From assembly GCF_036173125.1 (NCBI RefSeq), contig NZ_CP108054.1:9431501-9495500 (forward strand): a stretch of DNA of 64,000 bases, in the 5' to 3' direction. This document shows positions 769-23,528 of the stretch, in pieces; the stretch's first letter is position 1; the number at the start of each line of letters is the position of its first letter. The translations under genes and the position numbers were made by a program. This DNA comes from Streptomyces sp. NBC_00286 (GTDB lineage Bacteria; Actinomycetota; Actinomycetes; Streptomycetales; Streptomycetaceae). The notes under the pieces are model-generated. The model searched no databases. It worked only from the letters and a program-made list of their open reading frames with translations, and was not told the origin of the DNA.

Positions 769-2190
769 TCAGCGAAGGAGAGGTCCTGTGACGAGGGGGA
801 GGACTGCGCCGCCGGCGATGCCGAGGACGAGGGAGACCGAAGCAGCGGTGTAGGCCGTGGCGGCAGCCCAGCGGCCGAGTGCGGCGTGGGCTTCGGTGGG
901 TGCGGGATCGGTGGTGGTGAAGAGGGGGGCGAGCCAGCGCAGGTAGTAGAAGAGGGAGGCGACGGTGTTGGCGACGGCGAGGGCGGTCAGCCAGGTGTAG
1001 CCGCCGTCGACGGCGGCGCTGAAGATCTCCAGCTTGCCGAGGAAGACGCCGGTGGGCGGGGTGCCGACCAGGCCCAGCAGGCACACGACCAGGACGGCGC
1101 CGAGACCGGGGTGGCGGCGGGCGAGGCCGCGGTAGTCGTCGAGGTCGCGGGCGTGCGGGAGTTCGGTCACGACGGCGAACGCGCCGAGATTGGTGGCGGC
1201 GTAAGCGGCGAGATAGAACAGCAGGCTCTTTTGGGCGAGGTCGGTGCGGGTGGCGACGGCCAGGGCCATCAGGAGGTAGCCGACCTGGCTGATGGTGGAG
1301 TACGCGAGCAAGCGTTTGACGGAGTTCTGGAAGAACGCGGCCAGGTTGCCCAGCGTCATCGTGACTGCGGCGATGACGGCCAGCAGCAGAGGCCAGTTGA
1401 CGTCACTGTCGGGCAGGGCCTGGTGCAGCAGGCGATAGCCGGCGATCAGGCCGCCGATCTTGGGCAGGGTCGTGACGTAGGCGCCGACGGGGGTGCGCGC
1501 GCCCTCGGTGACGTCGGGGACCCAGAAGTGCGCCGGGACCGCCCCGGCCTTGAGCAGCAGGCCGGCCAGGACGCCGATGAGCCCGACGGCGACAAGTCCG
1601 TAGGCGGCGGTGGGCAGCGCCCTGTGCAGTTCGCGGTAGAGGGTGGCGTGGCCGGCCGCGTAGAGGAGAGCCGTGCCGGCGAGCATGGTGGTGCCGAGCA
1701 GGACGCCCATCAGGTAGTACTTCAGGGCTGCCTCGGTGCCGCGTTCGTCCTTGGCGAAGGCTGTGAGCGCGTAGCCGGGGATGCTCGCGAGCAGGTAGGC
1801 GGCGAAGAGCGTCAGCAGATCGTTCGCGCCGATCAGGACAAGGGTGCCGGCTCCGGTCAGCAGGAGCAGCACCCAGTACTCGGCCTCACGTTTGTGACCG
1901 CGGACGGTTTCCACGGACATGGCGATGATCAGCAGCAGGGCACCCAGAACGATCAGGCGGCCGACGTCGGTGGCCGCATCGACGGCGAACGCGTGGGAGA
2001 AGACGGTCTGTTCGCGGCCGGTGGCCATGGTGATGCCGGTGGCGACCAGGCCGGCCACGCAGGCGGCGGCCGCCAGCACCGCGACGGTCCACTGACGGCG
2101 GCGGGGCAGCCAGGCACCGGCGAGCAGGCCGATGACGGCGGCGCCGAGCAGGGAGAGTTCGGGGACGAGGGCGGCGAGGTTCTCGTTCAT
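769..2190 (-). CDS. nuoN: NADH-quinone oxidoreductase subunit N-like (antiporter-type membrane subunit)
   Basis: This 473-residue polytopic membrane protein is the last gene of the complex I membrane-arm operon. It carries the proton-antiporter fold, with the conserved lysine-bearing stretch KAGAVPAHFWVPDVTEG and the segment VKRLLAYSTISQVGYLLM typical of NuoN. The ATG at 2188-2190 lies inside the ATGA overlap with the stop of nuoM, which fixes the start; the same frame stays open far upstream but only as a shadow of nuoM. In complex I this subunit pumps protons across the cytoplasmic membrane. With no peripheral arm encoded nearby, its electron source here is unknown. Confidence 0.93.
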   Translation of the reverse strand: MNENLAALVPELSLLGAAVIGLLAGAWLPRRRQWTVAVLAAAACVAGLVATGITMATGREQTVFSHAFAVDAATDVGRLIVLGALLLIIAMSVETVRGHKREAEYWVLLLLTGAGTLVLIGANDLLTLFAAYLLASIPGYALTAFAKDERGTEAALKYYLMGVLLGTTMLAGTALLYAAGHATLYRELHRALPTAAYGLVAVGLIGVLAGLLLKAGAVPAHFWVPDVTEGARTPVGAYVTTLPKIGGLIAGYRLLHQALPDSDVNWPLLLAVIAAVTMTLGNLAAFFQNSVKRLLAYSTISQVGYLLMALAVATRTDLAQKSLLFYLAAYAATNLGAFAVVTELPHARDLDDYRGLARRHPGLGAVLVVCLLGLVGTPPTGVFLGKLEIFSAAVDGGYTWLTALAVANTVASLFYYLRWLAPLFTTTDPAPTEAHAALGRWAAATAYTAASVSLVLGIAGGAVLPLVTGPLLR

Positions 2191-3692
2191 CGGGCCACCA
2201 GTCCGGTAACCGTGCGGCTGGCCGGTTCGATGACGTCCAGCAGCCAGCGCGGCGCGACGCCGATCACCAGCGCGACCGCCAGCAGCGCCACCGTGGAGAC
2301 GGTCTCGGTGCCCTTGAGGTCGCCGACGCCGCCGGTGGGGGCGGTCTGCGGCAGGCGCGGGATGCCGAGGAACATGGAGCGCAAGGCGCGCAGGAACAGG
2401 GCAGCAGTGATCAGGATGCCGGTCAGGGCGATGGCGGTGGCGATCGTCTGGGAAGCCAGGGCGCCGGTGAAGATCTGGAACTCGGCGATGAACCCGGAGA
2501 AGCCGGGAATGCCGAGACTGGCGAACGCCGCAAGGGCTGTGACGCCGGCGAAGCGTGGAGTGTGCGCAGCCAGTCCGGAGTAGGCATCCATCGCGTATGT
2601 CTGCCCACGGTCGTACAGCACGCCGCTGAGCAGGAACAGGGCGCCGGTGATCAGGCCGTGGCTGACCATCTGGGTGACCGCCCCGGTGACCGCGAGGGAG
2701 CGGGCCTGGGCGTCGGTGCCGGCCAGCGTTCCGGCGGCACCGACGGCGAGGACGATGTAACCCATGTGGTTGACCGAGGTATAGGCGATCATGCGTTTGA
2801 AGTCGGTCTGCGCCAGGGCGACCAGCGCACCGTAGACGACGGAGACGGCGCCGATGACGACGATGACCAGGGCGTAGTGGCGCCAGCCGGCCGGCACCAG
2901 GGGCATGGCGATGCGGACGAAGCCGTAGGTGCCCATCTTCAGCAGAATGCCGGCCAGGATCGCCGAGCCGGCGGCGGGGGCGTCGGTGTGGGCGGGTGGC
3001 AGCCAGGTGTGGAACGGCACGGTCGGGGTCTTGATCGCCAGGCCGACGCCGATGGTCAGCAGCACCAGGCCGGCGTACAGGCCGCGGCCGGCGAGCGGAT
3101 TGCTCTGGGTGAGGTCGACGAGGTCGAAGGTGTGGGGTTCGGCGGCGAGGTACAGGCCGATGAAGCCGAGCAGCAGGGCGAGGGAGCCGATGAAGGTGTA
3201 GAGGAAGAACTTCAACGCCGCAGCCCGGGCTCGCTCGCCGTGGCCCCACCCGGCGATGACGAAGAACATGCCGACGATCGACAGGTCGAAGAAGACGAAG
3301 AAGAGGATCAGGTCCAGGGCGACGAACAGGCCCAGGCTGACGGTCTGCAGGAACAGGAACAGGCACACGTACGAACGCGCCCGTCGCCGCTCCTTCAGCG
3401 AGTACACAGCGACGGTCAGGAACAGCAGACAGGTCAGCGCCACCAGGGGGAGGGACAGGCCGTCGACGCCGACGTGGTAACCCACCCCGGCACTGGGGAT
3501 CCACCGCACCCGCTGCTGGAACTGCATTCCGCCGCCCGGGTCGAACTCGGTCCAGACGGCGACGACCAGGGCGAGGTCGACGGCGGCAGTGGCGATCCAC
3601 ACCCAGATGTACGCCCGGTCGGAGAGCGTGCGGGGCAGGAGCAGCAGTACCGCACAGACCAGCAGGGGCAGGAACGTGACGACGCTCAGCAC
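2187..3692 (-). CDS. nuoM: NADH-quinone oxidoreductase subunit M-like (antiporter-type membrane subunit)
   Basis: A 501-residue membrane protein of the NuoM class, with about 14 hydrophobic segments. The conserved run KTPTVPFHTWLPPAHTDAP holds the antiporter lysine and following histidine, and AQTDFKRMIAYTSVNHMGYI is the second family hallmark. Translation starts at a GTG (3690-3692) only four bases after the nuoL stop and ends in an ATGA overlap with nuoN, so expression is probably coupled. It would form one of three proton channels in the membrane arm. Length and motifs match bona fide NuoM with no visible damage. Confidence 0.94.
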   Translation of the reverse strand: MLSVVTFLPLLVCAVLLLLPRTLSDRAYIWVWIATAAVDLALVVAVWTEFDPGGGMQFQQRVRWIPSAGVGYHVGVDGLSLPLVALTCLLFLTVAVYSLKERRRARSYVCLFLFLQTVSLGLFVALDLILFFVFFDLSIVGMFFVIAGWGHGERARAAALKFFLYTFIGSLALLLGFIGLYLAAEPHTFDLVDLTQSNPLAGRGLYAGLVLLTIGVGLAIKTPTVPFHTWLPPAHTDAPAAGSAILAGILLKMGTYGFVRIAMPLVPAGWRHYALVIVVIGAVSVVYGALVALAQTDFKRMIAYTSVNHMGYIVLAVGAAGTLAGTDAQARSLAVTGAVTQMVSHGLITGALFLLSGVLYDRGQTYAMDAYSGLAAHTPRFAGVTALAAFASLGIPGFSGFIAEFQIFTGALASQTIATAIALTGILITAALFLRALRSMFLGIPRLPQTAPTGGVGDLKGTETVSTVALLAVALVIGVAPRWLLDVIEPASRTVTGLVAR

Positions 3693-3696
3693 AGGA

Positions 3697-5568
3697 CTAC
3701 CTCACCAACAGCACGATCAGGGTCAGAACGGCGAAGCCGACGGCGGCCTGGGCGTAGTACTGGTGCAGCAGCCCGGTCTGCGGACGCCGCGCCCACCGGC
3801 CCAGTCTCCGGGCGCCGGCGGCCACCGCGCCGACGGCGGCGTCGATGCCGCCGTCGTCCAGCCGGCCGGCAAGCCGGGCCGTGACGATCCCGCCGCGGGC
3901 GGCCTGCCGTACGGCACCGTCGGCGACGCGGTCGTCGAAGACGGCCAGCGCCCGAGCCAGCCCCAGTACGGGCCGCACCACCACGGCGTGCGCGGCCCGC
4001 TCCAGATACAGCCACCCATGCGCCCACCGCACCACAGCTCCCGGCGCCGGCGCGGGGCGGGGCGCCCACCACCAGGCCAGGCCCGCGGCGGTGAGTGCGA
4101 CACCGGCGGACAGGCCCAGCTCCCACGGCTTGGGGGACGGCTCGCCCGGGGCACCGACCAGCCGCTTCAGCCAGGACGCCGGTCCGGGCAGGGTCAGCAC
4201 GCCCAGCACGGCCGCGGCGAGGGTGAGGGCGAGCAGCGGTGCCGGCGTCGTGCGGGCGGTGCGCCGGGTGCCGCTCTGCTCGGTGTCGTACCCGGCATCC
4301 GGATCGTCGGGCAGCGGCCGGGTGACGTACCAGACGGCCTTGATGCTGTAGACGGCGGCGACGGCGGCCGCCGCGAGCCCCACAGCGTACAGCGCGGTGC
4401 TCTCGGCACGTGCGGAGGCGAGGACTTCGTCCTTGGCCGCCCACAGCGACAGTGGCGGCAGCCCGGCCAGCGTCAGCGCTCCGGCGGTGAAGGTGGTGCC
4501 GACCAGAGGGTGGGTGCGGGCGGCGCCGCGCAGCGCGGGCAGCTGCTTGGTGCCGAGCGTGGTCAGCCAGGCTCCGGCGGCGAGGAACAGTCCCGATTTC
4601 GTGGCGGCGTGCGCGACGAGCTGGGTGGTGCCCGCGGCGACCCCGCTACTGCCGGCGGCCAGCACCATGAACCCGATCTGCCCCGAGGTGGACGCCGCGA
4701 GCAGCTGTTTCAGATCGCGCTGGGCGACGGCGACCACGCCGAGGGCGAGAGCGGTGACGGCGCCGGCCCAGGCGACCAGCGGACCGGCCCAGCCGGTGGC
4801 GGCCAGCAGCGGATGCAGGCGTAACAGCAGGTAGGCGCCCGCGGCGACCATGGTCGCCGAGTGCAGCAGCGCCGAGACGGAACTGGGTCCCTGCATGGCC
4901 CGCGACAGCCAGAAGGAGAACGGCAGCTGCGCCGACTTGCCCAGGGCGGCTACGACCACACCTGCGGTGATCAGGTGCAGCCACGGTGAGGTGGCGTGCG
5001 GCAGGGTGTCCAGGTTCAGGGAACCGGCGCCGCCGGCCATCGCCGCGCCGGCGGCCAGGTACAGGCCGAGGTCGGCGGTGCGGGTGGTGAGGAACGCGGT
5101 GTCCGCCGCGCGTACCCGCTCGGGCCGGTGCCACCAGTAGCCGATCAGTGCCCAACTGGTGGCGCCCATCACCTCCCAGGCCATCAGCAGCAGCGGCAGC
5201 GTGGTCGCCGTGACGGTGACCAGCATGGATCCGGCGAAGATCAGCATCAGCCCGAAGTACCGCCCCCGGTTCTCCTCGTGGGCGAACTCCCCCGCCGCGA
5301 AGGCCAGGACGGCGGCGGTGACCGCGGCCACGAGGGTCACCATCACCGCGGACAGTCCGTCCACTGCCAGGCCCGCCCGCATTCCGGCGAACAGCGGCGC
5401 ACTCGTCTCGGGCCGGGTCACCGCGGCGGCGACGGCCACGCCGAGCGTCGCCACGGCCACCGTCACGCCGATGGGGGCAACCAGCCGGTTGTAGCGAGCG
5501 CCCGTCAGACCGAGGGCCGTTCCCGCGCCGAGGGGAAGGGCGATCAGCAGCCAGATCAACGCGCTCAT
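3697..5568 (-). CDS. nuoL: NADH-quinone oxidoreductase subunit L-like (distal antiporter subunit)
   Basis: A 623-residue NuoL-class protein. The key glutamate lies in LLMAWEVMGATSWALIGYWW, and the lysine/histidine channel segment is GKSAQLPFSFWLSRAMQGPS followed by SALLHSATMVAAGAYLL. A long C-terminal extension after about residue 480 ends in a last hydrophobic helix, as expected for the lateral helix and anchor of NuoL, though it is alanine-rich and shorter than in E. coli. The start at 5568 overlaps the nuoK stop (ATGA). It forms the distal proton pump of complex I-type machines. Confidence 0.93.
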   Translation of the reverse strand: MSALIWLLIALPLGAGTALGLTGARYNRLVAPIGVTVAVATLGVAVAAAVTRPETSAPLFAGMRAGLAVDGLSAVMVTLVAAVTAAVLAFAAGEFAHEENRGRYFGLMLIFAGSMLVTVTATTLPLLLMAWEVMGATSWALIGYWWHRPERVRAADTAFLTTRTADLGLYLAAGAAMAGGAGSLNLDTLPHATSPWLHLITAGVVVAALGKSAQLPFSFWLSRAMQGPSSVSALLHSATMVAAGAYLLLRLHPLLAATGWAGPLVAWAGAVTALALGVVAVAQRDLKQLLAASTSGQIGFMVLAAGSSGVAAGTTQLVAHAATKSGLFLAAGAWLTTLGTKQLPALRGAARTHPLVGTTFTAGALTLAGLPPLSLWAAKDEVLASARAESTALYAVGLAAAAVAAVYSIKAVWYVTRPLPDDPDAGYDTEQSGTRRTARTTPAPLLALTLAAAVLGVLTLPGPASWLKRLVGAPGEPSPKPWELGLSAGVALTAAGLAWWWAPRPAPAPGAVVRWAHGWLYLERAAHAVVVRPVLGLARALAVFDDRVADGAVRQAARGGIVTARLAGRLDDGGIDAAVGAVAAGARRLGRWARRPQTGLLHQYYAQAAVGFAVLTLIVLLVR

Positions 5569-5870
5569 CCCTTCAGGTCGCCGGCCATGTCGGTCATGTC
5601 GACCCGGCGGGCGCGGTAGATCGCGGTGGTGACGGCGAAGCCCATCGCCATCTCCACCGCCATCGCGACCACGGCCGCCACAATCACCACCTGGCCGCTT
5701 GGGGCCCCGGGGGCGAGGAAGTGCCAGAAGTCGGCGGCCGCGACGATGATGCCGCCGATCATCAGCTCGATCCCCATCATGATCATGACGATGGACTGCT
5801 GGGACAGCGCGCCGAACAGGCCGGTGCAGAACAGGCCCGCGGCCAGCACCAGGATCAGTTCGAACGTCAT
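5565..5870 (-). CDS. nuoK: NADH-quinone oxidoreductase subunit K-like
   Basis: A 101-residue protein with three transmembrane helices. The segment GIELMIGGIIVAAADFWHF holds the conserved membrane glutamate of NuoK, and a second acidic residue is in AMAVEMAMGFAVTTAIY. The ATG at 5868-5870 sits in an ATGA overlap with nuoJ, so the long upstream open frame is not coding here. In complex I it links NuoJ and NuoN in the proton relay. It is intact and of normal length. Confidence 0.93.
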   Translation of the reverse strand: MTFELILVLAAGLFCTGLFGALSQQSIVMIMMGIELMIGGIIVAAADFWHFLAPGAPSGQVVIVAAVVAMAVEMAMGFAVTTAIYRARRVDMTDMAGDLKG

Positions 5871-6436
5871 CGGCCCACTCCTCCGCCGGCCGGGTCCTTC
5901 GCGGGCCGCTGGTCCAGGTCGTCGCCGAATCGGTCGTAGCGGCCGCGGTGGGTGGCCAGCACGGTGGCGGCGACCATGGTGGCCAGCAGCACGAACCCGA
6001 GGGTGACCATGGTCAGCATCTGTTCGGCCATCAGCGCCCTGCCGACCTGGAAGGTCGTGTCCCGGGGCTGCAGTGCGGCGCTGTCCCGCCAGGGCACCAG
6101 GAAGATCCCGGCGACCAGCGCGGCGAAGACAACGCCGCTGATGACGAGCGCGCCGCGCTTGTTGTGCAGCATCGACATCGGCATCAGTCCGGCCGGGTTC
6201 ATCATGTAGGCGATCATGAACACGGCCATGACCACCATCTCCATGACCATCATCAGCACGATGACCACGCCCAGATAGGGCAGGCCGAGGACGGTCGTGA
6301 CGCCGCCGACGCACACCAGGGCCGCCAGCAGCGAGAAGGTGACCCGTGCCATCGAGTTCAGCGTGAACACCAGCACGCCGAAGACCAGGGCAAGTACTCC
6401 CAGAACCACCAGCAGCACGGTGTTGGTCGTGCCCAT
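5867..6436 (-). CDS. nuoJ: NADH-quinone oxidoreductase subunit J-like
   Basis: This 189-residue membrane protein has five predicted helices. The conserved glycine-tyrosine region is represented by TTVLGLPYLGVVIVLMMVME, although the strictly conserved NuoJ tyrosine context is modified. The stretch MMVMEMVVMAVFMIAYMMNP is unusually methionine-rich. The gene starts 18 bases after nuoH and overlaps nuoK by ATGA. The C-terminus is soluble and charged. Assignment rests on gene order (H-J-K-L-M-N) and topology as well as sequence; NuoI is missing between H and J, where it normally lies. Confidence 0.85.
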   Translation of the reverse strand: MGTTNTVLLVVLGVLALVFGVLVFTLNSMARVTFSLLAALVCVGGVTTVLGLPYLGVVIVLMMVMEMVVMAVFMIAYMMNPAGLMPMSMLHNKRGALVISGVVFAALVAGIFLVPWRDSAALQPRDTTFQVGRALMAEQMLTMVTLGFVLLATMVAATVLATHRGRYDRFGDDLDQRPAKDPAGGGVGR

Positions 6437-6454
6437 GACGCGGTTCCCTTCCTT

Positions 6455-7384
6455 CTATCGGTTGAGGTTGACCACGGCTGGAACCAGGACTTGCACGATC
6501 GTCAGCGGGATGAGCACCACCCAGGCGAACTCCACGTACCGGTCGGCTCGGATCATCGGCAGCCGCCGCAGCACCCACACCAGCAGACCGAGCACCAGCA
6601 GCGTTTTGACCAGCGACCACACCGAGGCCGGCAAGCCCGGCCCGGCGCCGCCGCCCAGGAAGAGCGGGACCGCCATGGCCGAGCCGGATGCCAGCCACAG
6701 CCACCGGCCGGCCTGCAGCAACAGCCGGTCCACGCCGGACGTCTCGCCCAGGACACCGCCGGCGAGGTCGCGGCCGACTGGATAGGCGAAGGGGCCCAGA
6801 AAGCTGAACGCCAGCACACCGGCCAGGTAGGCGGCGAAGGCGACCGGCATCCACACCGCGTACCACAGCCCGTGCTGCGCGGCGGCGATGTCGCCCACCC
6901 GCAGCGACTCCGCCCCGGTGGCGGTGGAGATCAGCGCGAACATCAGCGGCAGCTCATAGGCCAAGCCCTGGGCGAGAAACCGGTACCCGCCGATCAGGGA
7001 GAACGCGGCGTTGGGACCCCAGCCGGCCAGCCACAGCCCGGCCCAGGTCAGCACCTCCATGGCGTTGAACCACACCACCCCGACGGACAGGTCGGCGACC
7101 GCGTGGTTTCCGAACGGGATGACCAGCGTGGACAGCACGGCGGCCACCGGCACGGTGATGACACCGGTCCGCCACAGCAGCCGGTCCGGGGCGGGCATCC
7201 GCCGCGGCTGCGCCACCAGCGCCCGCGGCACACCGAGAAACGGCCGCACCGCGGTGGCGAGGCTGACCGGCCGTCCCGCGCTCCGGGCGTCCAGCACCGC
7301 GTCGCCGGCCACCGCCAGCACCGCAAAGCCGAGCAGCAGCCCCGGGGCGGCCAGCAGCGTCCACCACGCCCCCGCCTCAACCAT
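6455..7384 (-). CDS. nuoH: NADH-quinone oxidoreductase subunit H-like
   Basis: A 309-residue membrane protein. The motif GGYRFLAQGLAYELPLMFAL corresponds to the quinone-pocket loop of NuoH, which in canonical proteins reads roughly ...SAAQ.iSYEip. Further helices end in RADRYVEFAWVVLIPLTIVQV. The ATG at 7382-7384 overlaps the upstream 480-residue gene by eight bases. In complex I this subunit anchors NuoB, NuoD and NuoI and forms the quinone chamber. With those partners absent, the adjoining fusion-like protein is the obvious candidate partner. Confidence 0.9.
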   Translation of the reverse strand: MVEAGAWWTLLAAPGLLLGFAVLAVAGDAVLDARSAGRPVSLATAVRPFLGVPRALVAQPRRMPAPDRLLWRTGVITVPVAAVLSTLVIPFGNHAVADLSVGVVWFNAMEVLTWAGLWLAGWGPNAAFSLIGGYRFLAQGLAYELPLMFALISTATGAESLRVGDIAAAQHGLWYAVWMPVAFAAYLAGVLAFSFLGPFAYPVGRDLAGGVLGETSGVDRLLLQAGRWLWLASGSAMAVPLFLGGGAGPGLPASVWSLVKTLLVLGLLVWVLRRLPMIRADRYVEFAWVVLIPLTIVQVLVPAVVNLNR

Positions 7385-8819
7385 GCGTCACCTCCAGCGT
7401 GCGGGCGGCCAGTTCGTCCGGATCGGGGTCGAGGCTGGCCACGATGAGGCGGGCCGCGGCCAGCTCGGCGCCTTCCAGCAGCCGGGGCAGCAGCCCGATC
7501 AGGGCGGACGACGGCGGGTGTTCGGCACTCCAGTGGCCACGCGGGCTCTCCTCCACCGCCACCTCGAGCGGAGACGACTCCTCCAGCCGTCGCAGGTCGT
7601 GCCCGATATCGGTGAGCCACTGCCGGTAGCGGTCGGTCACGTCCCCACCGGCCCGCGCTGCCGGACCACTCACTCCTGCCTCCCCCGCGTCCTGTGCCGT
7701 CACGACGCCGATGCCGCGAGTCAGCCAGGCCAAGGTGCGCGAGAAGCCGACCCTGCGGGTGAAGCGTTCCAGTCGAGGCGCAACCGCGGCGCGGGGCGCG
7801 CCGGAGAGCAGGTCGTCCCGCAGCCGCCGGGCCGACAGAACCTCGCTCGGCCAACCCGCCACGGCCAGCAGCCGGCCCAGGCTGTCCATGTGCGCTGCCA
7901 TGCGCCTACGCACCGCCTCGCCCACGGGCACCGGATCCCCAGCAGCCGCCCGCAGCCAGGGCCGCACCCAGAAAGGCTCAGCCGCCGCGTCGGCAACGGG
8001 CGTCGCCGGTTCTTCGAGAGTGGCGTGCTGGACGACGTCGCCCTGCAATACCAGACGGATCGTCAGGCCCGTGGGCCAGTCGGTCAGTAACGCCCCCAAC
8101 GGCACATGCAACTGGTCCAGCGTCAGGCCGTCGCGGTCCTCACCCTGCTCGGCCATCGGCAGCCCGGCCGGCATCTCCATCTCCCCGCCCCCGTGGCCGC
8201 CGTTGCTGCCGTGCCCCTCGTCGTCGCGGTGACCGTCGGCCTCTTGGCCATCGTGGGCGTCCCCACGGGCGCCCTGCTCTGCCTCCGGTCGATGGCCGGC
8301 ATCATGCTGGTCGCGTCCACCGCTGTGCCCGCCGTGGGCGTCATCGGCCTGGTCGTCCGCGGTGCGCCTGCCGCTTGCCCTGTCCCTGCCGTGGTGGTCT
8401 CGCTGCGCGTGTCCGGGAGCGTCCTGGTCGCCCTCTTGATGTTCCTGCGTTCTCTGTTCCCCGTCCTGCTGTTCGCCTTCCTCAGGGGCTGCCTGCTCGT
8501 GCTGGACGGTCGGTGAGCGGAGTCGGGCCCGGCCGGCCTCCAGCGCGTCCTCCACCTCGTCAGCACTGCGGGCGTGCACCCGGGCGCGCGGCGCGGGCAG
8601 GTCCTGCCACAGCCGGTCCAGCGCCGCCTGCAGGCTCACGCAGTGGGGACCGGCGACAAGGAGGAGATCGGCCTGCGCCGGAGTGGAGACCTGCGGCCAG
8701 TCCCGCAGCCGCAGCAGCCGCTCGGCGGCCAGTCGTACCGCTGTCCCACGCGGCAGAGTCGCCAGCAGCACGCGCGGTCGTGCCGCGGTGCCGCGCAGCG
8801 CCGGCCCGGTCACGTCCAT
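7377..8819 (-). CDS. Unusual NuoB/NuoD-like composite protein with His/Asp-rich linker
   Basis: A 480-residue soluble protein between nuoA (10-base overlap) and nuoH (8-base overlap). Residues 45-80 (ADLLLVAGPHCVSLQAALDR and following) resemble the part of NuoB and [NiFe]-hydrogenase small subunits just before the distal cluster ligands, but no cluster cysteine set exists. Residues 105-213 are a low-complexity linker rich in Asp, Gly, Gln and 13 histidines. Residues 232-265 (LDQLHVPLGALLTDWPTGLT...QGDVV) recall the N-terminal beta domain of NuoD/HycE, and 300-375 recall its helical region without active-site residues. The domain reading is inference; position and overlaps make it a real operon member. 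Confidence 0.75.
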   Translation of the reverse strand: MDVTGPALRGTAARPRVLLATLPRGTAVRLAAERLLRLRDWPQVSTPAQADLLLVAGPHCVSLQAALDRLWQDLPAPRARVHARSADEVEDALEAGRARLRSPTVQHEQAAPEEGEQQDGEQRTQEHQEGDQDAPGHAQRDHHGRDRASGRRTADDQADDAHGGHSGGRDQHDAGHRPEAEQGARGDAHDGQEADGHRDDEGHGSNGGHGGGEMEMPAGLPMAEQGEDRDGLTLDQLHVPLGALLTDWPTGLTIRLVLQGDVVQHATLEEPATPVADAAAEPFWVRPWLRAAAGDPVPVGEAVRRRMAAHMDSLGRLLAVAGWPSEVLSARRLRDDLLSGAPRAAVAPRLERFTRRVGFSRTLAWLTRGIGVVTAQDAGEAGVSGPAARAGGDVTDRYRQWLTDIGHDLRRLEESSPLEVAVEESPRGHWSAEHPPSSALIGLLPRLLEGAELAAARLIVASLDPDPDELAARTLEVTHG

Positions 8820-9160
8820 CGCAGAGCGCCCTCCCGCCAGGCATAGGCGATCCCGGCGAGCAGGATCCCGAGGAACAAGAACATCTCGATCACCGCGCTG
8901 GGCCCCATGGCGGAGATCACGCGCGTCCACGGGTACATGAAGACCATCTCCATGTCGAAGGCGAGAAAGAGCATCGTCACCGTGTACCAGCGCACATGGA
9001 ACCGGCTTACCGCGTGCTCCACCGGCTCCGATCCCGATCCGAACGGCGTCGCGGACAGCGCTGCCGAACCGATCCGCCCCGCCCACGCCGACGCATAGAC
9101 GCTCGCAACGGCGACCAGGGCCATACCGAGCAGAGACAGCGCCGCAGCGGTGCCGCTCAT
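8810..9160 (-). CDS. nuoA: NADH-quinone oxidoreductase subunit A-like
   Basis: A 116-residue protein with three hydrophobic segments. The core RFHVRWYTVTMLFLAFDMEM followed by VFMYPWTRV is the NuoA/ND3 signature, including the acidic FDMEMVF segment. The usual loop before it is partly kept as SGSEPVEHAVSRF in place of GcGfeP...aR.rF. The start at 9160 overlaps the stop of a 34-residue ORF (ATGA), with a GGTGAG ribosome-binding sequence before it. It is the first recognisable gene of the complex I-type operon and belongs with nuoH at the quinone-chamber end. Confidence 0.9.
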   Translation of the reverse strand: MSGTAAALSLLGMALVAVASVYASAWAGRIGSAALSATPFGSGSEPVEHAVSRFHVRWYTVTMLFLAFDMEMVFMYPWTRVISAMGPSAVIEMFLFLGILLAGIAYAWREGALRWT

Positions 9161-9261
9161 ACGTTCTCACCGTCCAGGCCGACGACCGACCGGCCAGACC
9201 ATGCCGGCAGAACCCTCCCTCCGCGCACCGCGTACACCGATGCCTCCTCGCCCAGGAACAT
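9157..9261 (-). CDS. Small 34-residue ORF translationally coupled to nuoA
   Basis: This short ORF starts MFLGEEASVYAVRGGRVLPA and ends with a TGA that overlaps the nuoA start (ATGA). On the minus strand AAGGAGG lies five bases before the ATG at 9259-9261, the strongest ribosome-binding site of the operon. No family is recognised and there is no membrane segment. It may be a leader peptide that sets translation of nuoA, or a very small accessory protein. Confidence 0.5.
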   Translation of the reverse strand: MFLGEEASVYAVRGGRVLPAWSGRSVVGLDGENV

Positions 9262-9588
9262 CCTTGCCTCCTTACCGGCCTGTTTGAATCCATTGGGGTA
9301 CCCCCCGGAGGCAGGCGCAATCCGGGGTAGCGCCCGGCTGCCGGTGCTCCAAGGGCACGGGCCATCAGCTCCGCGGCCGCCGCAGGTCGGCCGCCACCCG
9401 CTGACCCGGAGCGACGCAGCAGCGACCCGCACTGAAGCGACCCACATGGACTGGCCACCAGCAATCCAGGGAGCGCGCAATGATCAACGTGGTGATAGGG
9501 ACGGCGCCGCGGGGGTACTGAGTGTGGTCCGGAGTCGACCACCGAAGGGCCGGCGGTGGATTCGTGGAACGGCAGGCAGGAGAGGGCG
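9262..9588. other. Divergent intergenic region between nuo operon and holin-like gene
   Basis: No convincing gene is seen in this 327-base stretch. It holds a possible stress-type promoter for the nuo operon at about 9298-9323 on the minus strand, with the 10-base palindrome GGGGTACCCC at 9295-9304. The plus-strand side must carry the promoter of the downstream holin-like gene, but no clear consensus was found. Confidence 0.5.
9298..9323 (-). promoter_or_regulatory. Possible SigB/SigH-type promoter of the nuo-like operon
   Basis: Read on the minus strand, GGAT is followed after 16 bases by GGGTAC (9298-9303). This fits the Streptomyces general-stress consensus GNNT-N14-16-GGGTAC/T, with transcription expected to start about 30 bases before the 34-residue ORF. 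The -35 match is minimal, so this is suggestive only. Confidence 0.35.
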
Positions 9589-10384: not shown

Positions 10385-12181
10385 ATGGACATCCTGCTCG
10401 TCGCCAGCACCTTCAACAGTCTCTCCCAGCGCGTGTACGCCGAACTGTCGGAGCACGGCCACCGGGTGGACGTTGTCCTCGCCGCGTACGGTGCCGACGA
10501 GGTCCGCGCCGCTGTACGGGAACTGCGCCCGGAGCTGATCATCGCGCCGATGCTGAAGACGGCCCTGCCAGAAGACGTGTGGCGGGAGAACACCTGTCTC
10601 ATCGTGCACCCGGGACCGCCCGGCGACCGCGGGCCGTCGTCCTTGGACTGGGCGATCGCCGAGGAGGTGCCGCGCTGGGGCGTGACGGTCCTGCAGGCCG
10701 AGGCGGCGATGGACGCGGGGGCCGTCTGGGCGGCGGTGCCGTTCTCGGTGCCGCCGGTGGGCAAGAGCGACCTGTACCGCAACGAGGCCTCCGACGCCGC
10801 CGTTGCCGCCGTGCGGCAGGCTGTGCAGCGGTACGCCGACGGCTCGTTCAAACCGCGGCCGCAGAGCGATCCCTCGGTCCGCGTGGTGTGGCGGGACTTC
10901 TTCCGCCAGGAGCGGCGGCGCATCGACTGGGAGGGCGACAGTACCGAAACCGTGCTGCGTAAACTCCGCGGGGCCGACTCGCAGCCGGGAGTGCTGGACG
11001 AACTCCTGGGCCGTGAGGTGTTCCTGCACGGCGGGCATCCGGAGGACCGGCTGCGCGGCCGTCCCGGCGACCTGCTCGCGACGCGGGCCGGAGCCGTGTG
11101 CCGGGCCACCCGGGACGGCGCGGTCTGGATCCCCGAAATCCGACCGCGCAAGAGCTCGGGCGACCCGGCGCCCTTCCGGCGCCCGGCGGCCTCAGTGCTG
11201 GCCTCGCTGTCGGATCCGTCGGCCCACCGTTTCCCTGGCCCGGTCGGCAGCGGTCTTTCGGGCGGTCGCCTGCCGTGCCCCACGGGTCCTCCCCTGAGGC
11301 TTCCGGACATGCCGGCCCCGCTCGAGCTACCCCTCGACCGCCGCACCTGGGCGGACATCCGCTACCGGCAGCTCGGCAACGTCGGCCTGCTGAGGTTCTC
11401 CTTCCCCAGCGGTGCCATGAGCACCGGCCAGTGCCGCAGGCTGCTCGCCGCCTACCGGTATGCGCTCTCCCGCCCGACCTCGGTGCTGGTCCTCGGCGGT
11501 ACCCGTGACTTCTTCTCCAACGGCATCCACCTGAACGTCATCGAGGCGGCCGCCGACCCGGCCGGGGAGTCCTGGACCAACCTGAACGCGATGGACGACC
11601 TGGTCGAGGCGGTGCTGCGCACCACCGACCGGTTGGTCGTGGCGGCGCTCGGTGGCAACGCGGCGGCGGGCGGCGTCATGCTCGCCCTCGCCGCCGACGA
11701 GGTGTGGTGCCGTACGGGCGCCGTCCTCAACCCGCACTACCGGCGGATGGGCCTGTACGGGGCGGAGTTCTGGACGTACACCCTGCCGCGCCGCGTCGGA
11801 GCGGAGACGGCCGAGCGGCTGGTGACCGAGGCGCTGCCGGTGAGTGCCGCCGCGGCCGTCGGCATGGGGCTGGTGGACCGCCTGGTGCCGGTCGCGGCAC
11901 AGGAGTTCGCGGCCGAGGTGGAGCGTGTGGCCGTGGCACTCGCCGATGCCCCGGACCTGGCAGAGCGGGTCGCGGCCAAGGCCCAGGCACGGGAGCGGGA
12001 CGAGGCCATCCGGCCGCTCGCACAGTACCGGCAGGCCGAACTGGCCCGCATGCACACCATCTTCTTCGACCCGCAAGCCCCCTACCACGCCCTGCGCTCC
12101 GCCTTCGTACGGAAGACGCCGAGCGGCTCTGCCCGGCCGCTCGCCCCTGTCGGCGAGCCCGCCGCCGGGAGCGTCCGGTGA
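10385..12181 (+). CDS. hypX: HypX/HoxX: CO-ligand synthesis enzyme for [NiFe] hydrogenase
   Basis: A 598-residue two-domain maturation protein. Residues 1-200 are a formyltransferase-like domain, with the tetrahydrofolate-site motif HPGPPGDRGPSSLDWAI. The C-terminal half (about 320-560) is a crotonase-fold domain containing LGGTRDFFSNGIHLN and GGNAAAGGVMLALAADEVWC. In the known HypX family the formyl group of N10-formyl-tetrahydrofolate is converted to CO, the active-site iron ligand, under oxic conditions. It heads the maturation operon, and its TGA overlaps the GTG of the endopeptidase gene. Its presence supports maturation during aerobic growth. Confidence 0.93.
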   Translation: MDILLVASTFNSLSQRVYAELSEHGHRVDVVLAAYGADEVRAAVRELRPELIIAPMLKTALPEDVWRENTCLIVHPGPPGDRGPSSLDWAIAEEVPRWGVTVLQAEAAMDAGAVWAAVPFSVPPVGKSDLYRNEASDAAVAAVRQAVQRYADGSFKPRPQSDPSVRVVWRDFFRQERRRIDWEGDSTETVLRKLRGADSQPGVLDELLGREVFLHGGHPEDRLRGRPGDLLATRAGAVCRATRDGAVWIPEIRPRKSSGDPAPFRRPAASVLASLSDPSAHRFPGPVGSGLSGGRLPCPTGPPLRLPDMPAPLELPLDRRTWADIRYRQLGNVGLLRFSFPSGAMSTGQCRRLLAAYRYALSRPTSVLVLGGTRDFFSNGIHLNVIEAAADPAGESWTNLNAMDDLVEAVLRTTDRLVVAALGGNAAAGGVMLALAADEVWCRTGAVLNPHYRRMGLYGAEFWTYTLPRRVGAETAERLVTEALPVSAAAAVGMGLVDRLVPVAAQEFAAEVERVAVALADAPDLAERVAAKAQARERDEAIRPLAQYRQAELARMHTIFFDPQAPYHALRSAFVRKTPSGSARPLAPVGEPAAGSVR

Positions 12182-19966: not shown

Positions 19967-20571
19967 GGTGCTCCCTGCGGCTGGACGGGTCGGCGCACCA
20001 GCGTGTCCAGGGGGACGAACGCGGCCTGCCGGGACTCCTGCTCCGCCACCGGCTCCACGGCCGTCAGTTCGGGCGCCGCGGCGAGAACCGCCTCTCGGAC
20101 GGCCTCCTCGACGTCGGCGGATGCCGACCCGCACCCGGATCCGCATCCAGGGGTACGGAGCCGGATTCGCGCGACCGGGCCTTCCACTGCGGCCAGTTCC
20201 GCATCACCGCCGCGTTCCTGGAGGGCGGGCCGGAGCCGCTCGACGGCCCGGGCGGCCCGACGCTCGGGCGGCTCCGGGTGGACCTCGTGCAGCACCAGCA
20301 GGTGACCCAGCAACTCGTCGTCGGCCAGGCGTGCGCCCAGCGCGGCGTCCGCACGGTCCATCACCCGGGCCAGCGCCTCGCCGTAGACCTCGGTCAGCGC
20401 GCCGACGGCGTCGAGGGCTGCTTTGGCCGTGGGGCCCGGCGCGATCTGCACCTTTTCCAGCAGCTCGTCGATGCGCGTGAGCCGTGCCATGACCTCGCCG
20501 TCGTCCAGCCGCGGGGCCGGACCTGCGCCACCGGCCTCTTCCGCGGCGGCCGAGTGAGCGGATTCAGCCAT
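19963..20571 (-). CDS. NifU-like protein of the hydrogenase cluster
   Basis: A 202-residue protein. The N-terminal 120 residues are helical and unlike canonical NifU. Residues about 125-175 resemble the NifU C-terminal scaffold domain, with LRTPGCGSGCGSASADVEEA followed by ...VLAAAPELTAVEPV. The cysteine spacing is CxxxC rather than the usual CxxC. The gene overlaps hhyL by eight bases and DUF5947 by four, so it is co-translated with the large subunit and probably serves Fe-S supply or redox transfer specific to this hydrogenase. Confidence 0.85.
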   Translation of the reverse strand: MAESAHSAAAEEAGGAGPAPRLDDGEVMARLTRIDELLEKVQIAPGPTAKAALDAVGALTEVYGEALARVMDRADAALGARLADDELLGHLLVLHEVHPEPPERRAARAVERLRPALQERGGDAELAAVEGPVARIRLRTPGCGSGCGSASADVEEAVREAVLAAAPELTAVEPVAEQESRQAAFVPLDTLVRRPVQPQGAP

Positions 20572-22363
20572 GGGACGCTCCGTAGGTGGGGGAATGCAGG
20601 GTGCTGAGCGTCTTGCCCTTGCCGAGGTACATGTGGACCCCGCAGGGCAGGCAGGGATCGAAGCTTCGGACGGTCCGCATGATGTCGACGCCCTTGAAGT
20701 CCTCCGGCCCGTTCTCCTCGAAGATGGGCTGTCCCTGGACGGCGTCCTCGTACGGGCCGGGGGTGCCGTAGCTGTCGCGGGGGCTGGCGTTCCAGGGGGT
20801 CGGCGGGTACGGGTGGTAGTTGGCGATCTTCTTGTCCTTGATCACCAGGTGGTGGGAGAGGACGCCGCGCACCGCCTCGTGGAAGCCGCAGCCGATGGCC
20901 TCGTCGGGCACCTCGAAGTCCTCGTACACCTTGGTCTTCCCCGCGCGCACCAGTTGCATGGCCTCCTCCAGGGACTGGAGGGCCATCGCGGCCGCGTAGG
21001 CGATGAAATAGGGCCGGGCGCGGTCCCGCTCGATGGTGTTGCTCCACTTGGGGATGTGCCACTCCAGCGTCGTCTCCGGCAGCTTCTCGCTCTTGGGAAG
21101 CGAGATGCGCACGCTGTGCCCGGTGGCTTTGATGTACGGAGTGTCGACCAGGCCGTTGAGCGCCGTGGACCACAATCGGGCGAGCGGACCGCCGCCGGTG
21201 TCGAGGGCGAGGTGCTCACCGCTCTCCTTGTGGTACCAGCGCGGGCTCATGACCCAGCTGTAATTGGCGTCGAACTCGCGCTTCTGCGGCACAGGGACGG
21301 TGGTCTGGTTCCACGGGTGCCGCATGTCGACCGGGTTGCCGAGCGGGTCGTGGGTGACGAACGGCTTCTCGTTGACCCAGTCGTCGTAGTAGGAGCTGCC
21401 CAGCAGGATGCGCATCCCCAGGTTGATGTCGACCAGGTTGTTGGTGACCAGTTCGCCGTCGAGGACGATGCCGGGCGTGACGTACATCGCCTTGCCCCAG
21501 TCGTTCATGGTCTCGTAGCGGTAGTCGACCACGTCCGGGTTCTGGAAGGAGCCCCAGCAGCCGAGCATGATCCGGCGGCGTCCGACCTCCTCGTAGCCGG
21601 GCAGCGCCTCGTAGAAGAAGTCGAACACGTCGTCGTTCATCGCCACGGCCTGCTTGATGAAGTCGAGGACCTTCATCAGGCGGGACAGGTAGTCGGTGAA
21701 CGTGTTCGGCTGCGGCATCGTGCCGACGCCGCCCGGGTACATCGTCGACGGGTGGACGTGGCGCCCTTCCATGAGACAGAACATCTCGCGGGTGACGCGG
21801 CTGACCTTCAGGGCCTCCTTGTACACCTCGCCCTCGAACGGGTTGAAGGCGCGCATGATGTCGGCGATGGTCCGGTAGCCGTGAATCTGCCCGCGGGGCG
21901 CCTCGGTCCGCTCGGCCCGCGCCAGCACACTCGGGTTGGTGGCCTTGACCATCGCCTCGCAGAAGTCCACGAACACCAGGTTGTCCTGGAAGATCGTGTG
22001 GTCGAACATGTACTCGGCGGCCTCGCCGAGGTTGACGATGTGCTCAGCGAGCGGCGGCGGCTTGATGCCGTAGGCCATCTGCTGCGCGTAGTTCGAGCAG
22101 GTGGTGTGGTTGTCGCCGCAGATGCCGCAGATGCGCGAGGTGATGAAGCCCGCGTCGCGCGGGTCCTTGCCCTTCATGAACACCGAGTAGCCGCGGAAGA
22201 GCGACGAGGTGCTGTGGCACTCCACGACTTCCTGGTTGGCGAAGTCGATCTTCGTGTAGATGCCGAGGTTCCCGATGATCCGGGTGATGGGGTCCCAGGA
22301 CATGTCGACGATCTGCGGCGGTCTGCGCTCGCCCGCCCGGATCCGGTCCTCGGTTGTCGTCAT
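20564..22363 (-). CDS. hhyL: Group 1h-type [NiFe] hydrogenase large subunit
   Basis: A 599-residue large subunit. The L1 motif RICGICGDNHTTCSNY supplies Cys79 and Cys82, and the L2 motif DPCLPCGVH supplies Cys571 and Cys574; together these ligate the NiFe(CN)2CO site. Endopeptidase cleavage is expected after His577, removing a 22-residue tail (MYLGKGKTL...). The extended L1 context and the small-subunit pairing fit the high-affinity actinobacterial type (group 1h/5) that oxidises atmospheric H2. It follows hhyS after 73 bases and overlaps the NifU-like gene. No Tat signal is present on either subunit. Confidence 0.95.
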   Translation of the reverse strand: MTTTEDRIRAGERRPPQIVDMSWDPITRIIGNLGIYTKIDFANQEVVECHSTSSLFRGYSVFMKGKDPRDAGFITSRICGICGDNHTTCSNYAQQMAYGIKPPPLAEHIVNLGEAAEYMFDHTIFQDNLVFVDFCEAMVKATNPSVLARAERTEAPRGQIHGYRTIADIMRAFNPFEGEVYKEALKVSRVTREMFCLMEGRHVHPSTMYPGGVGTMPQPNTFTDYLSRLMKVLDFIKQAVAMNDDVFDFFYEALPGYEEVGRRRIMLGCWGSFQNPDVVDYRYETMNDWGKAMYVTPGIVLDGELVTNNLVDINLGMRILLGSSYYDDWVNEKPFVTHDPLGNPVDMRHPWNQTTVPVPQKREFDANYSWVMSPRWYHKESGEHLALDTGGGPLARLWSTALNGLVDTPYIKATGHSVRISLPKSEKLPETTLEWHIPKWSNTIERDRARPYFIAYAAAMALQSLEEAMQLVRAGKTKVYEDFEVPDEAIGCGFHEAVRGVLSHHLVIKDKKIANYHPYPPTPWNASPRDSYGTPGPYEDAVQGQPIFEENGPEDFKGVDIMRTVRSFDPCLPCGVHMYLGKGKTLSTLHSPTYGASHG

Positions 22364-22436: not shown

Positions 22437-23528
22437 TCACGGACGCCAGTCGGGGTCGTAACCGGAGGTGAGCACCGGCTTGTTGTGGTGCCACTTGGGT
22501 TCGCGGTTGACCGCGATGTTGGTGATGCCGCGCATGCGGCGGATGAACGCCCCGTAGGGCTTGATGAGGATCGACGACAGGCTGCCGCCGGCCGGCTCGT
22601 CCATGAACGGCATGAACATGTCGGGAAAGCCCGGCATGGTGCAGCCGATGCAGATGCCGCCGACGTTCGGGCAGCCGCCGATGCCCGACATCCAGCCGCG
22701 CTTGGGCACGTTGCAGTTCACCACCGGGCCCCAGCAGCCCACCTTCACCTGGCACTTGGGGGAGTTGTAGTCCTTGGCGAAGTCGCCCTGCTCGTAGTAC
22801 GCGGCGCGGTCGCAGCCCTCGTGCACGGTCTTTCCGAACAGCCACTGCGGCCGCAGCATGTGGTCGAGCGCCGGTGCCGGGGCGGCCCCCGCCGCGTGGT
22901 AGAGGACCCAGAGCAGAGTCTCCATGAAGTTCTCCGGCTGGATCGGGCAGCCGGGGACGTTGACGATCGGGAGGGCGCCTTCCGACTTGAAGTCCCAGCC
23001 GAGGTAGTCGGCCAGACCCATGCAGCCCGTCGGGTTGCCCGCCATCGCGTGGATGCCGCCGTACGTGGCGCAGGTGCCGGCGGCGACCACCGCCCACGCC
23101 TTCGGGGCGAGCCGGTCGATCCACCAGTTCAGAGTGAGCGGTTCGCCGGTGTCCGGGTCGTTGCCGAACGACGTCCAGTACCCCTCGCCCTCGATGATCT
23201 TCTGGTTGGGGATCGACCCCTCGATGACGAGGATGAACGGCGAGAGCTCGCCGCGGATCGCCGCGCGGTAGGGGGCGAGGAAGTCCTCGCCGCCGAGGCT
23301 CGGGGAGAGCACCTTGTTGTGCAGGTTGACCTTCGGCAGCCCGGGGACGAGCCCCTGCACGAGGTCCTCGATCGCCGGCTGGCCGGCCGCGGTGAAGGAC
23401 ACCGAGTCGCCGTCGCAGCTCATCCCCTCGGAGATCCACAGGACGGTGATCTCGTCGAAGCCGTCCTCGCGTGCTTCGGACCGGCTCGGTTCGGTGGCGA
23501 CCTCACGGGTGCCGCTTGCGGTCGTCAT
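22437..23528 (-). CDS. hhyS: Group 1h-type [NiFe] hydrogenase small subunit
   Basis: A 363-residue small subunit without a Tat signal. The proximal-cluster motif is EGMSCDGDS: Cys38 is kept, but the usual second cysteine is replaced by Asp41 (CxxD), as in the actinobacterial-type hydrogenase of Ralstonia eutropha. Further cluster ligands lie in AAGTCATYGG, NVPGCPIQPE, HEGCDRAAYY, KVGCWGPVVNC and GGICIGCTMPGFPD. It relays electrons from the NiFe site to an unknown acceptor. The start overlaps the hemerythrin stop (ATGA). Confidence 0.95.
   Translation of the reverse strand: MTTASGTREVATEPSRSEAREDGFDEITVLWISEGMSCDGDSVSFTAAGQPAIEDLVQGLVPGLPKVNLHNKVLSPSLGGEDFLAPYRAAIRGELSPFILVIEGSIPNQKIIEGEGYWTSFGNDPDTGEPLTLNWWIDRLAPKAWAVVAAGTCATYGGIHAMAGNPTGCMGLADYLGWDFKSEGALPIVNVPGCPIQPENFMETLLWVLYHAAGAAPAPALDHMLRPQWLFGKTVHEGCDRAAYYEQGDFAKDYNSPKCQVKVGCWGPVVNCNVPKRGWMSGIGGCPNVGGICIGCTMPGFPDMFMPFMDEPAGGSLSSILIKPYGAFIRRMRGITNIAVNREPKWHHNKPVLTSGYDPDWRP

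Follow-up and report, generated by a model that had tools for sequence, protein, structure and literature searches.

A stretch of 64,000 nucleotides (C1:9431501-9495500; hereafter the window, with positions counted from its first base) in the one-contig, 9.85-Mb genome of Streptomyces sp. NBC_00286 carries an eight-gene operon related to the membrane arm of complex I (NDH-1, Nuo). The nearest relatives of this stretch, among those found, are from Streptomyces. The eight genes of the operon, arranged A-X-H-J-K-L-M-N, occupy positions 769-9160 of the minus strand and are intact, with neighboring genes overlapping by 4-10 bases or separated by gaps of 4-18 bases. Pfam models matched all seven membrane subunits and, together with the coordinates, confirmed the statement of a first-pass annotation made from the sequence alone that these genes are intact. 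They encode, all on the minus strand, a NuoA-like protein (116 amino acids [aa]; 8810..9160; PF00507, E 3.2e-27), in which the membrane Asp/Glu is retained and the loop Cys is gone; a NuoH-like protein (309 aa; 6455..7384; PF00146, 5.3e-41) with a changed N-terminal GPNR region and acidic loop; a Met-rich NuoJ-like protein (189 aa; 5867..6436; PF00499, 8.8e-12); a NuoK-like protein (101 aa; 5565..5870; PF00420, 1.1e-10) that retains both membrane Glu residues and has an additional conserved Met; and three antiporter subunits resembling NuoL (623 aa; 3697..5568; PF00361, 1e-49; proton-path residues retained), NuoM (501 aa; 2187..3692; PF00361, 2.6e-65), and NuoN (473 aa; 769..2190; PF00361, 2.4e-55; Glu of transmembrane helix 5 [TM5] replaced by Leu). 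The eighth gene, X (480 aa; 7377..8819), encodes a fused, cofactor-free NuoB-like and NuoD-like protein. The first-pass annotation had placed a single non-membrane gene of 480 residues in the B/C/D slot and listed B, C, D, E, F, G, and I as absent. The gene is there, and C, E, F, G, and I are indeed missing; its identity needs correcting to a NuoB and NuoD remnant, in which B and D survive as a fusion.

The operon is spread over Actinomycetota and at least one gammaproteobacterial plasmid (Halomonas). Among 199 genomes of the genus, X had a match in 30 and a strong one in 28, a count that excludes G059 and G188 (E 4.4e-4 and 7.9e-4). The genus yielded 28 further loci: 26 with all eight genes, one ended by a contig edge, and one remnant. 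One X among the 26 complete loci is frameshifted, and X genes that had not been called there were recovered by tblastn. Relatives are encoded in 237 stretches in GTDB, and our counts use the best 80, which include Micromonospora, Actinomadura, Nonomuraea, and Acidiferrimicrobium. The unit is present in all 80 (one ends at a contig edge after M), with X uncalled yet found by tblastn in two. A more distant set comprises 20 loci from the 25 best-matching genomes outside the genus (E to 2.2e-6). Fifteen plasmid records had a match, and the five that we opened carry copies in Arthrobacter FB24, Curtobacterium, Halomonas, Mycobacterium avium, and Rhodococcus, where A and X are the only genes annotated. 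Annotators label the genes of the plasmid operons (L331, L332, L334, and L335) as subunits of NADH-quinone oxidoreductase together with a hypothetical or DUF4779 protein. No nuoB, C, D, E, F, G, or I was found among the called genes within 10 kb of X at any of the 80 loci, some of which are ended by contig edges, with Pfam-verified proteins as the references; neither the electron input module (E, F, and G) nor the ferredoxin subunit (I) was present at any of them. The earlier remark that the operon has no visible electron input holds.

Within X, residues 13-95 (8535..8783, minus strand) are NuoB-like with the cluster N2 cysteines missing, and the family profile of this part matches Nqo6 residues 60-107. 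Residues 96-218 (8166..8534, minus strand) form a variable linker rich in His, Asp, and Gly, and residues 219-473 (7401..8165, minus strand) are NuoD-like. The window X by itself matches weakly, to NuoD at 0.0013 (PF00346, residues 366-396, below the cut-off) and to NuoB at 0.012 (residues 41-79). Matches are clearer across the family. PF00346 matches 14 of 27 X family members (E up to 1) and one NuoB family matches nine (E up to 0.1); the PF00346 match reaches 6e-11 to 6e-20 in seven deep-branch members and 2.7e-7 in the Halomonas X. When a profile of the 27 members was compared with all PDB sequences, NuoB came top (best 3.8e-4) and NuoD after it. A profile of 16 distant X proteins matched NuoD (4.7e-21), the Mbh large subunit (1.1e-20), and NuoB (4.2e-11). 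Across 396 genomes of the phylum, the weak matches listed fell mostly at X model positions 36-85 or 293-348, which are the NuoB-like and NuoD-like regions. Against NuoB of the same genome, hhalign gave 87% for the window's X group and 95% for distant X; against same-genome NuoD, for which two Pfam-checked NuoD proteins were used, it gave 98.7% for distant X and only 17.8% for the window's own group.

In complex I, cluster N2 is held by four Cys of NuoB, and the GPxHPxxHG motif of NuoD and the Glu of the NuoH AEY motif make the quinone site. The NuoB and NuoD features were not found in X. The 27-row alignment (A1, which leaves out the frameshifted X of L077 and the remnant L100) contains no invariant Cys and no Cys column filled in more than 18 of the 27 rows, and none of the commoner Cys columns lies inside the NuoB-like region. 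The four N2 cysteines are thus not seen, nor are the CxxC pairs that bind NiFe in the large subunit of group 4 [NiFe] hydrogenases, and GPxHPxxHG reads GPxxxxxPxG. The linker spans 20-169 residues between residue 110 and a DRD motif. In six of seven deep-branch X proteins scanned, a heavy metal binding domain (PF19335) lies between the NuoB-like and NuoD-like parts, and the Cys residues of deep-branch X are mostly within it. Because of the NuoB and NuoD profile matches, the lack of an invariant Cys, and the altered NuoD motif, X is best described from its sequence as a B-D fusion lacking redox ligands; at the family level the case is firm. By homology of the membrane arm and of the B/D module, the operon and X belong to the complex I superfamily in the evolutionary sense.

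Alignments of the membrane subunits were restricted to sequences whose length was close to normal (74 to 81 rows); residue positions follow E. coli numbering. At the quinone end, the NuoA loop Cys, the NuoH AEY Glu, and the NuoJ Tyr are substituted in all members aligned. The AEY Glu is replaced by Arg in 79/79 close, 18/18 distant, and 4/4 plasmid members, and the canonical NuoJ Tyr is replaced by Met in 81/81 close, 17/17 distant, and 4/4 plasmid members. Two NuoH loop Glu are also substituted in all members aligned; a loop Asp remains in 16/79 close and 13/18 distant members. With both the NuoD motif and the AEY Glu replaced, the quinone site of NuoD and NuoH was not found in this family.

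These replacements bear on whether the membrane subunits could borrow NuoB, C, D, and I from other nuo genes and work as ordinary complex I; the first-pass annotation had suggested borrowing from a second nuo operon. In principle such borrowing could occur: the genome has one full nuo operon, a second operon in the order A-B-C-H-I-J-K-L-M-N, and a separate NuoD-like gene. X, however, already takes the B/D position in all intact relatives observed, and the NuoA, NuoH, and NuoJ residues named above are replaced throughout. We consider borrowing highly unlikely. The second operon (L012, G000:C1:5998000-6017000) has no D, E, F, or G among its called genes; the lone NuoD-like gene (L010, G000:C1:5731349-5732497; PF00346, 6.3e-71) lies about 270 kb from it.

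The first-pass annotation had also pointed to a hydrogenase beside the operon as a possible electron donor. The adjoining island was confirmed. It begins at 10385, in the opposite direction, with a HypX-like gene (plus strand); a HycI-type protease gene comes next, with hypB, F, C, D, E, and A up to 18912, and the island includes HhyL at 20564-22363 and HhyS at 22437-23528. On that reading the arm would receive electrons from HhySL via X. HhyL (E to 1e-20) was found in 91 of the 199 genomes, namely 9 of 28 with X versus 82 of 171 without (Fisher P = 0.15); 19 of the 28 X genomes lack HhyL, and 82 of the 91 HhyL genomes lack X. Two of the nine genomes with both carry them within 25 kb on one contig (about 11 kb apart in the window and about 23 kb in G088), four have the two on a single contig at a large distance, and in the remaining three they are on different contigs of split assemblies. 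The search for the same gene order proposed in the first-pass annotation thus found that most genomes carry the operon away from HhyL, the outcome under which that annotation had called the link coincidental. Neighborhoods of HhyL were retrieved for 20 of the 91 genomes; 19 of these genomes have no X match, and one has X on another contig. The neighborhoods span about 9 kb on each side, whereas the distance in the window is 11 kb; missing operon genes near these 20 HhyL genes are therefore no test alone, and it is the genome-wide X search that tests the link. The operon therefore shows neither the linkage nor the co-occurrence with hhySL of a set of accessory genes. Genes for hydrogenase maturation adjoin the operon at 1 of the 80 loci (L164, hypE-D-C-F), which along with G088 shows that the arrangement in the window is not unique. 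No electron-carrier ligands were seen in X. On these sequence comparisons the adjacency in the window is best read as chance, and a hydrogenase-fed arm is strongly disfavored, to the point of being barely credible.

We then examined what recurs around the operon. The recurrent flank families include DUF305, a P-type ATPase with a heavy-metal-associated (HMA) domain, an HMA chaperone, BlaI-type and CsoR-type regulators, an M56 peptidase, and multicopper oxidases. Core copper genes (CopA, CopZ, CsoR, and DUF305, a grouping of our own) flank 36 of the 80 operons (flanks of 12.3 kb on average) versus 0 of 30 random 20-kb regions, and any of 14 metal-related families occurs in 49 of 80 flanks versus 0 of 30. 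Core copper genes were found in 0 of the 20 HhyL neighborhoods. The 28 genus-sample loci, which are partly from the same strains, have core copper genes at 10 and any metal-related family at 13, and the 13 non-Streptomyces loci within the 80 have core copper genes at 5. The 20 distant loci, from other families of the phylum, have them at 13, one by virtue of a 31%-identical ATPase about 10 kb off; L300 and L302 in this set are almost the same, and the chaperone position of L305 is labelled ATPase. At 8 of these 20 loci the operon follows a same-strand block of CopA/CsoR/CopZ type with up to two genes between, which is the arrangement in a deep branch. On the plasmids, the annotators' own labels place copper or heavy-metal genes by the operon in Arthrobacter, Curtobacterium, Halomonas, and M. 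avium, and BlaI/M56 in Rhodococcus. A PALP-family (cysteine synthase-like) gene lies near 17 of the 80 operons and an MFS transporter near 15.

We also examined the promoters. The CsoR operator consensus of S. lividans is TACCCC-N3-GGGGTA, according to the passages available from PMC3902906. We looked for it within 300 bases upstream of nuoA, with 248 upstream regions as controls. Among 81 upstream regions, 9 had an exact site, 21 a site with up to one mismatch, 30 with up to two, and 38 with up to three; the corresponding numbers among the controls were 0, 0, 5, and 40. Of the 21 sites with up to one mismatch, a divergent copZ shares 5 and another divergent gene shares 8; the remaining 8 lie behind a tandem gene. 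In the window, a CsoR-operator-like site, TGCCTCCGGGGGGTA (9299..9313, minus strand), has two mismatches and starts 153 bases upstream of NuoA, near the position of the site in close relatives. Genome-wide, the exact motif occurs at 9 places in 9.85 Mb, by CopA, CopZ, DUF4396, MFS, or multicopper oxidase genes. Taken with the neighborhoods, these data make an association of the operon with copper very probable.

Other features of the promoter region deserve mention. CopY sites (TACAnnTGTA) were sought and none was found. A BlaI-like palindrome, TCCTAC-N5-GTAGGA, occurs upstream of nuoA at 4 of 80 loci versus 0 of 248 controls; the four loci (L140, L154, L155, and L176) are all outside Streptomyces, and three have BlaI and M56 nearby. 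A candidate 34-codon leader peptide (9157..9261, minus strand) with a GGAGG-like site terminates within the ATGA of nuoA, and similar open reading frames occur in the close relatives L104, L105, L107, L120, and L152.

One alternative is a redox machine, in which X would shuttle electrons between copper in the linker and quinone, coupled to protons, as a copper oxidase or reductase. Descent from a quinone-reducing enzyme, the metal-binding domain of deep-branch X, and the multicopper oxidases near 6 of the 80 loci are all in keeping with such a role. Set against these are the absence of an invariant Cys from X, the GPxxxxxPxG motif, and the replacement of the AEY Glu and of both loop Glu of NuoH in every member aligned, with the caveat that the loop Asp survives in the minority of close and majority of distant members counted above. 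A copper oxidase or reductase is therefore improbable.

The residues that carry protons tell a different story from the redox end. The equivalents of NuoL E144, K229, K342, and K399 and of NuoM K234 and K265 are retained in all members aligned, and that of NuoM E407 with a single exception; Asp mostly stands in for NuoM E144. Both NuoK Glu are retained (one as Asp), and the NuoL proton-path residues are also present in the aligned plasmid copies. The NuoN K217 equivalent is Glu in seven distant or plasmid members and one close member. Because the proton-path residues of L, M, and K are mostly retained, selection has evidently maintained most of the proton machinery, whereas the redox end has been lost.

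The other marked change is in methionine. NuoJ averages 10.2% Met; for 30 canonical NuoJ proteins, counted over their first 190 residues, the figure is 3.4%. Across 80 family and 17 distant members, 11 positions in NuoJ and 3 in NuoK are Met in every sequence, versus 0 of 30 canonical proteins. Nine of the 11 invariant NuoJ Met sit in one helix-and-loop segment. Residues 61-91 (LMMVMEMVVMAVFMIAYMMNPAGLMPMSMLH; 6164..6256, minus strand) are a conserved methionine segment at the place of the Tyr-containing helix of canonical NuoJ. The window NuoJ aligned with the plasmid copies from Arthrobacter, Curtobacterium, and Halomonas, the last from another phylum, likewise gives 11 all-Met columns.

An ion or antiporter module was a further suggestion of the first-pass annotation and comes closest of its readings. 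In a specific form, the operon would encode a copper-induced, Mrp-like antiporter exchanging H+ for Na+ or K+ under copper stress, with X and its metal-binding linker serving only as a gating sensor. NuoL, M, and N also score against Mrp models, L, M, and K mostly keep their antiporter-like residues, and a linker of such variable length is what a sensor region might show. The invariant NuoJ Met, nine of them in one segment, are difficult to account for unless a soft metal passes there. We regard this antiporter as unlikely.

On balance, then, we favor a redox-free relative of complex I that moves copper(I) by means of the proton gradient, probably outward. NuoA, H, J, K, L, M, and N would assemble as a complex I-like membrane arm, and X, without cluster N2 or the usual features of a quinone site, would cap it on the cytoplasmic side. 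The His/Met-rich linker of X, whose place is taken by a heavy metal binding domain in deep-branch members, would bind copper, perhaps delivered by CopZ. Copper(I) may then pass through the methionine-lined region of NuoJ and NuoK, the part of complex I that couples quinone site and pumps, and proton flow through NuoL, M, and N, with most key residues retained, would drive export. The sequences themselves show the homology, the lost redox residues, the Met enrichment, the metal-binding linker or domain, the copper-gene neighborhoods, and the CsoR operators of relatives, whereas we infer the assembly of a single complex, copper(I) as its substrate, transport itself, its direction, and its coupling. 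Whether a quinone-driven proton pump has in this way turned into a proton-driven copper(I) pump, forming an undescribed branch of the complex I superfamily with a cofactor-free metal-binding cap and a Met-lined coupling channel, is in our judgment evenly balanced.

Direction is not readable from sequence, and the complex might instead carry copper or another soft metal inward or to cuproproteins. Multicopper oxidase, YtkA, and DsbD/CcdA genes, which may serve cuproproteins, do occur in the neighborhoods. The CopA and CopZ neighbors, however, are efflux genes, and CsoR lets its target genes be expressed under copper excess; the CsoR passages available from PMC3902906 concern the control of copper efflux systems. 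Import or delivery is accordingly a decidedly improbable alternative to the proposed export.

Several observations weigh against copper export as we propose it. In the stretch covered, 44 of the 80 relatives have no core copper gene, and no counted family was found in the window or in the 33 kb past its low edge. The counted families were picked after the flanks had been seen, and the loci are not independent: clustering at 85% NuoM identity leaves 18 clusters, of which 9 have core copper genes and 4 have the operator (at 95% identity, 27 of 65 clusters have core copper genes). The two mismatches of the window's operator are matched by 5 of the 248 control promoters. With up to one mismatch the operator occurs at 16 places genome-wide, as does a reversed control pattern; because the reversed pattern is equally frequent, the scarcity of the motif, not a genome-wide excess, carries the weight. 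PF19335 was absent from the window X and from all three of the other distant X proteins scanned. Two conserved positions of the membrane arm are also affected: the NuoN TM5 Glu (E133) is gone in all members aligned, and the NuoH E157 equivalent is gone in 11 of 18 distant members (retained in 7 of 18, and in 77 of 79 close members). Other metals appear as well, with NicO at 4 and CbtA at 3 of the 80 loci and an ArsR-type regulator beside NuoA at 4 of the 20 distant loci. The ArsR-type gene comes immediately before nuoA in L291, L293, L294, and L297 and lies about 2.4 kb off in L295; this position suggests that one branch has another type of metal control as well.

The genome analyzed also contains a decayed second copy of the operon (L309; pieces of M, L, and N, at about C1:9779295-9781224), which lies inside the genome's copper island near CopA, CopZ, and DUF4396 genes. 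Because no counted copper-type families lie near the intact operon, and it is the decayed copy that sits in the copper island, this strain is a weak representative of the copper link.

The operon differs in distinct ways from each known system that it resembles. With complex I it shares A, H, J, K, L, M, and N in canonical order and most of the proton-path residues of L, M, and K. It departs in lacking C, E, F, G, and I, in having B and D fused and shortened with no cofactor ligands, in its changed H and D quinone motifs and Met-rich J and K, and in the copper-type operators and neighbors of many relatives. A resemblance to group 4 [NiFe] hydrogenases, Mbh, and Ehr lies in the match of distant X to the Mbh large subunit; X has no invariant Cys for NiFe or iron-sulfur binding, however, and the NuoA/J/K/L/M/N set is complex I-like. 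Mrp antiporters and NuoL-type carbon uptake (DAB) systems are redox-free relatives of the antiporter subunits, but to our knowledge neither has a B/D-type cap and neither is known for metal handling. CusCBA and CopA are copper exporters, as the complex proposed here would be, and CusA contains Met relays; we know of no derivation of either system from complex I, and their folds are, as far as we know, unrelated. The RND family of CusA is described as proton-driven antiporters in PMC7558416. Like the Streptomyces CsoR regulon, many of these operons have TACCCC-N3-GGGGTA upstream, whereas the operators named for CsoR in the available passages of PMC3902906 are those of csoR, copZA1, and copZA2 only. 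In the open literature that we searched, mostly without subscription journals, no published description of such a system was apparent.

How complex I connects its quinone site with distant proton channels is a long-standing question. A relative that keeps most of the proton-channel residues and the NuoK Glu and has a metal-binding end in place of the quinone site would allow coupling to be studied without electron transfer. If the proposal is true, these operons would encode a metal transporter of a new kind, found on plasmids in the company of copper-resistance genes, and their annotations as NADH-quinone oxidoreductase would need correction. It would also mean that complex I can be remodeled to work with something other than electrons.

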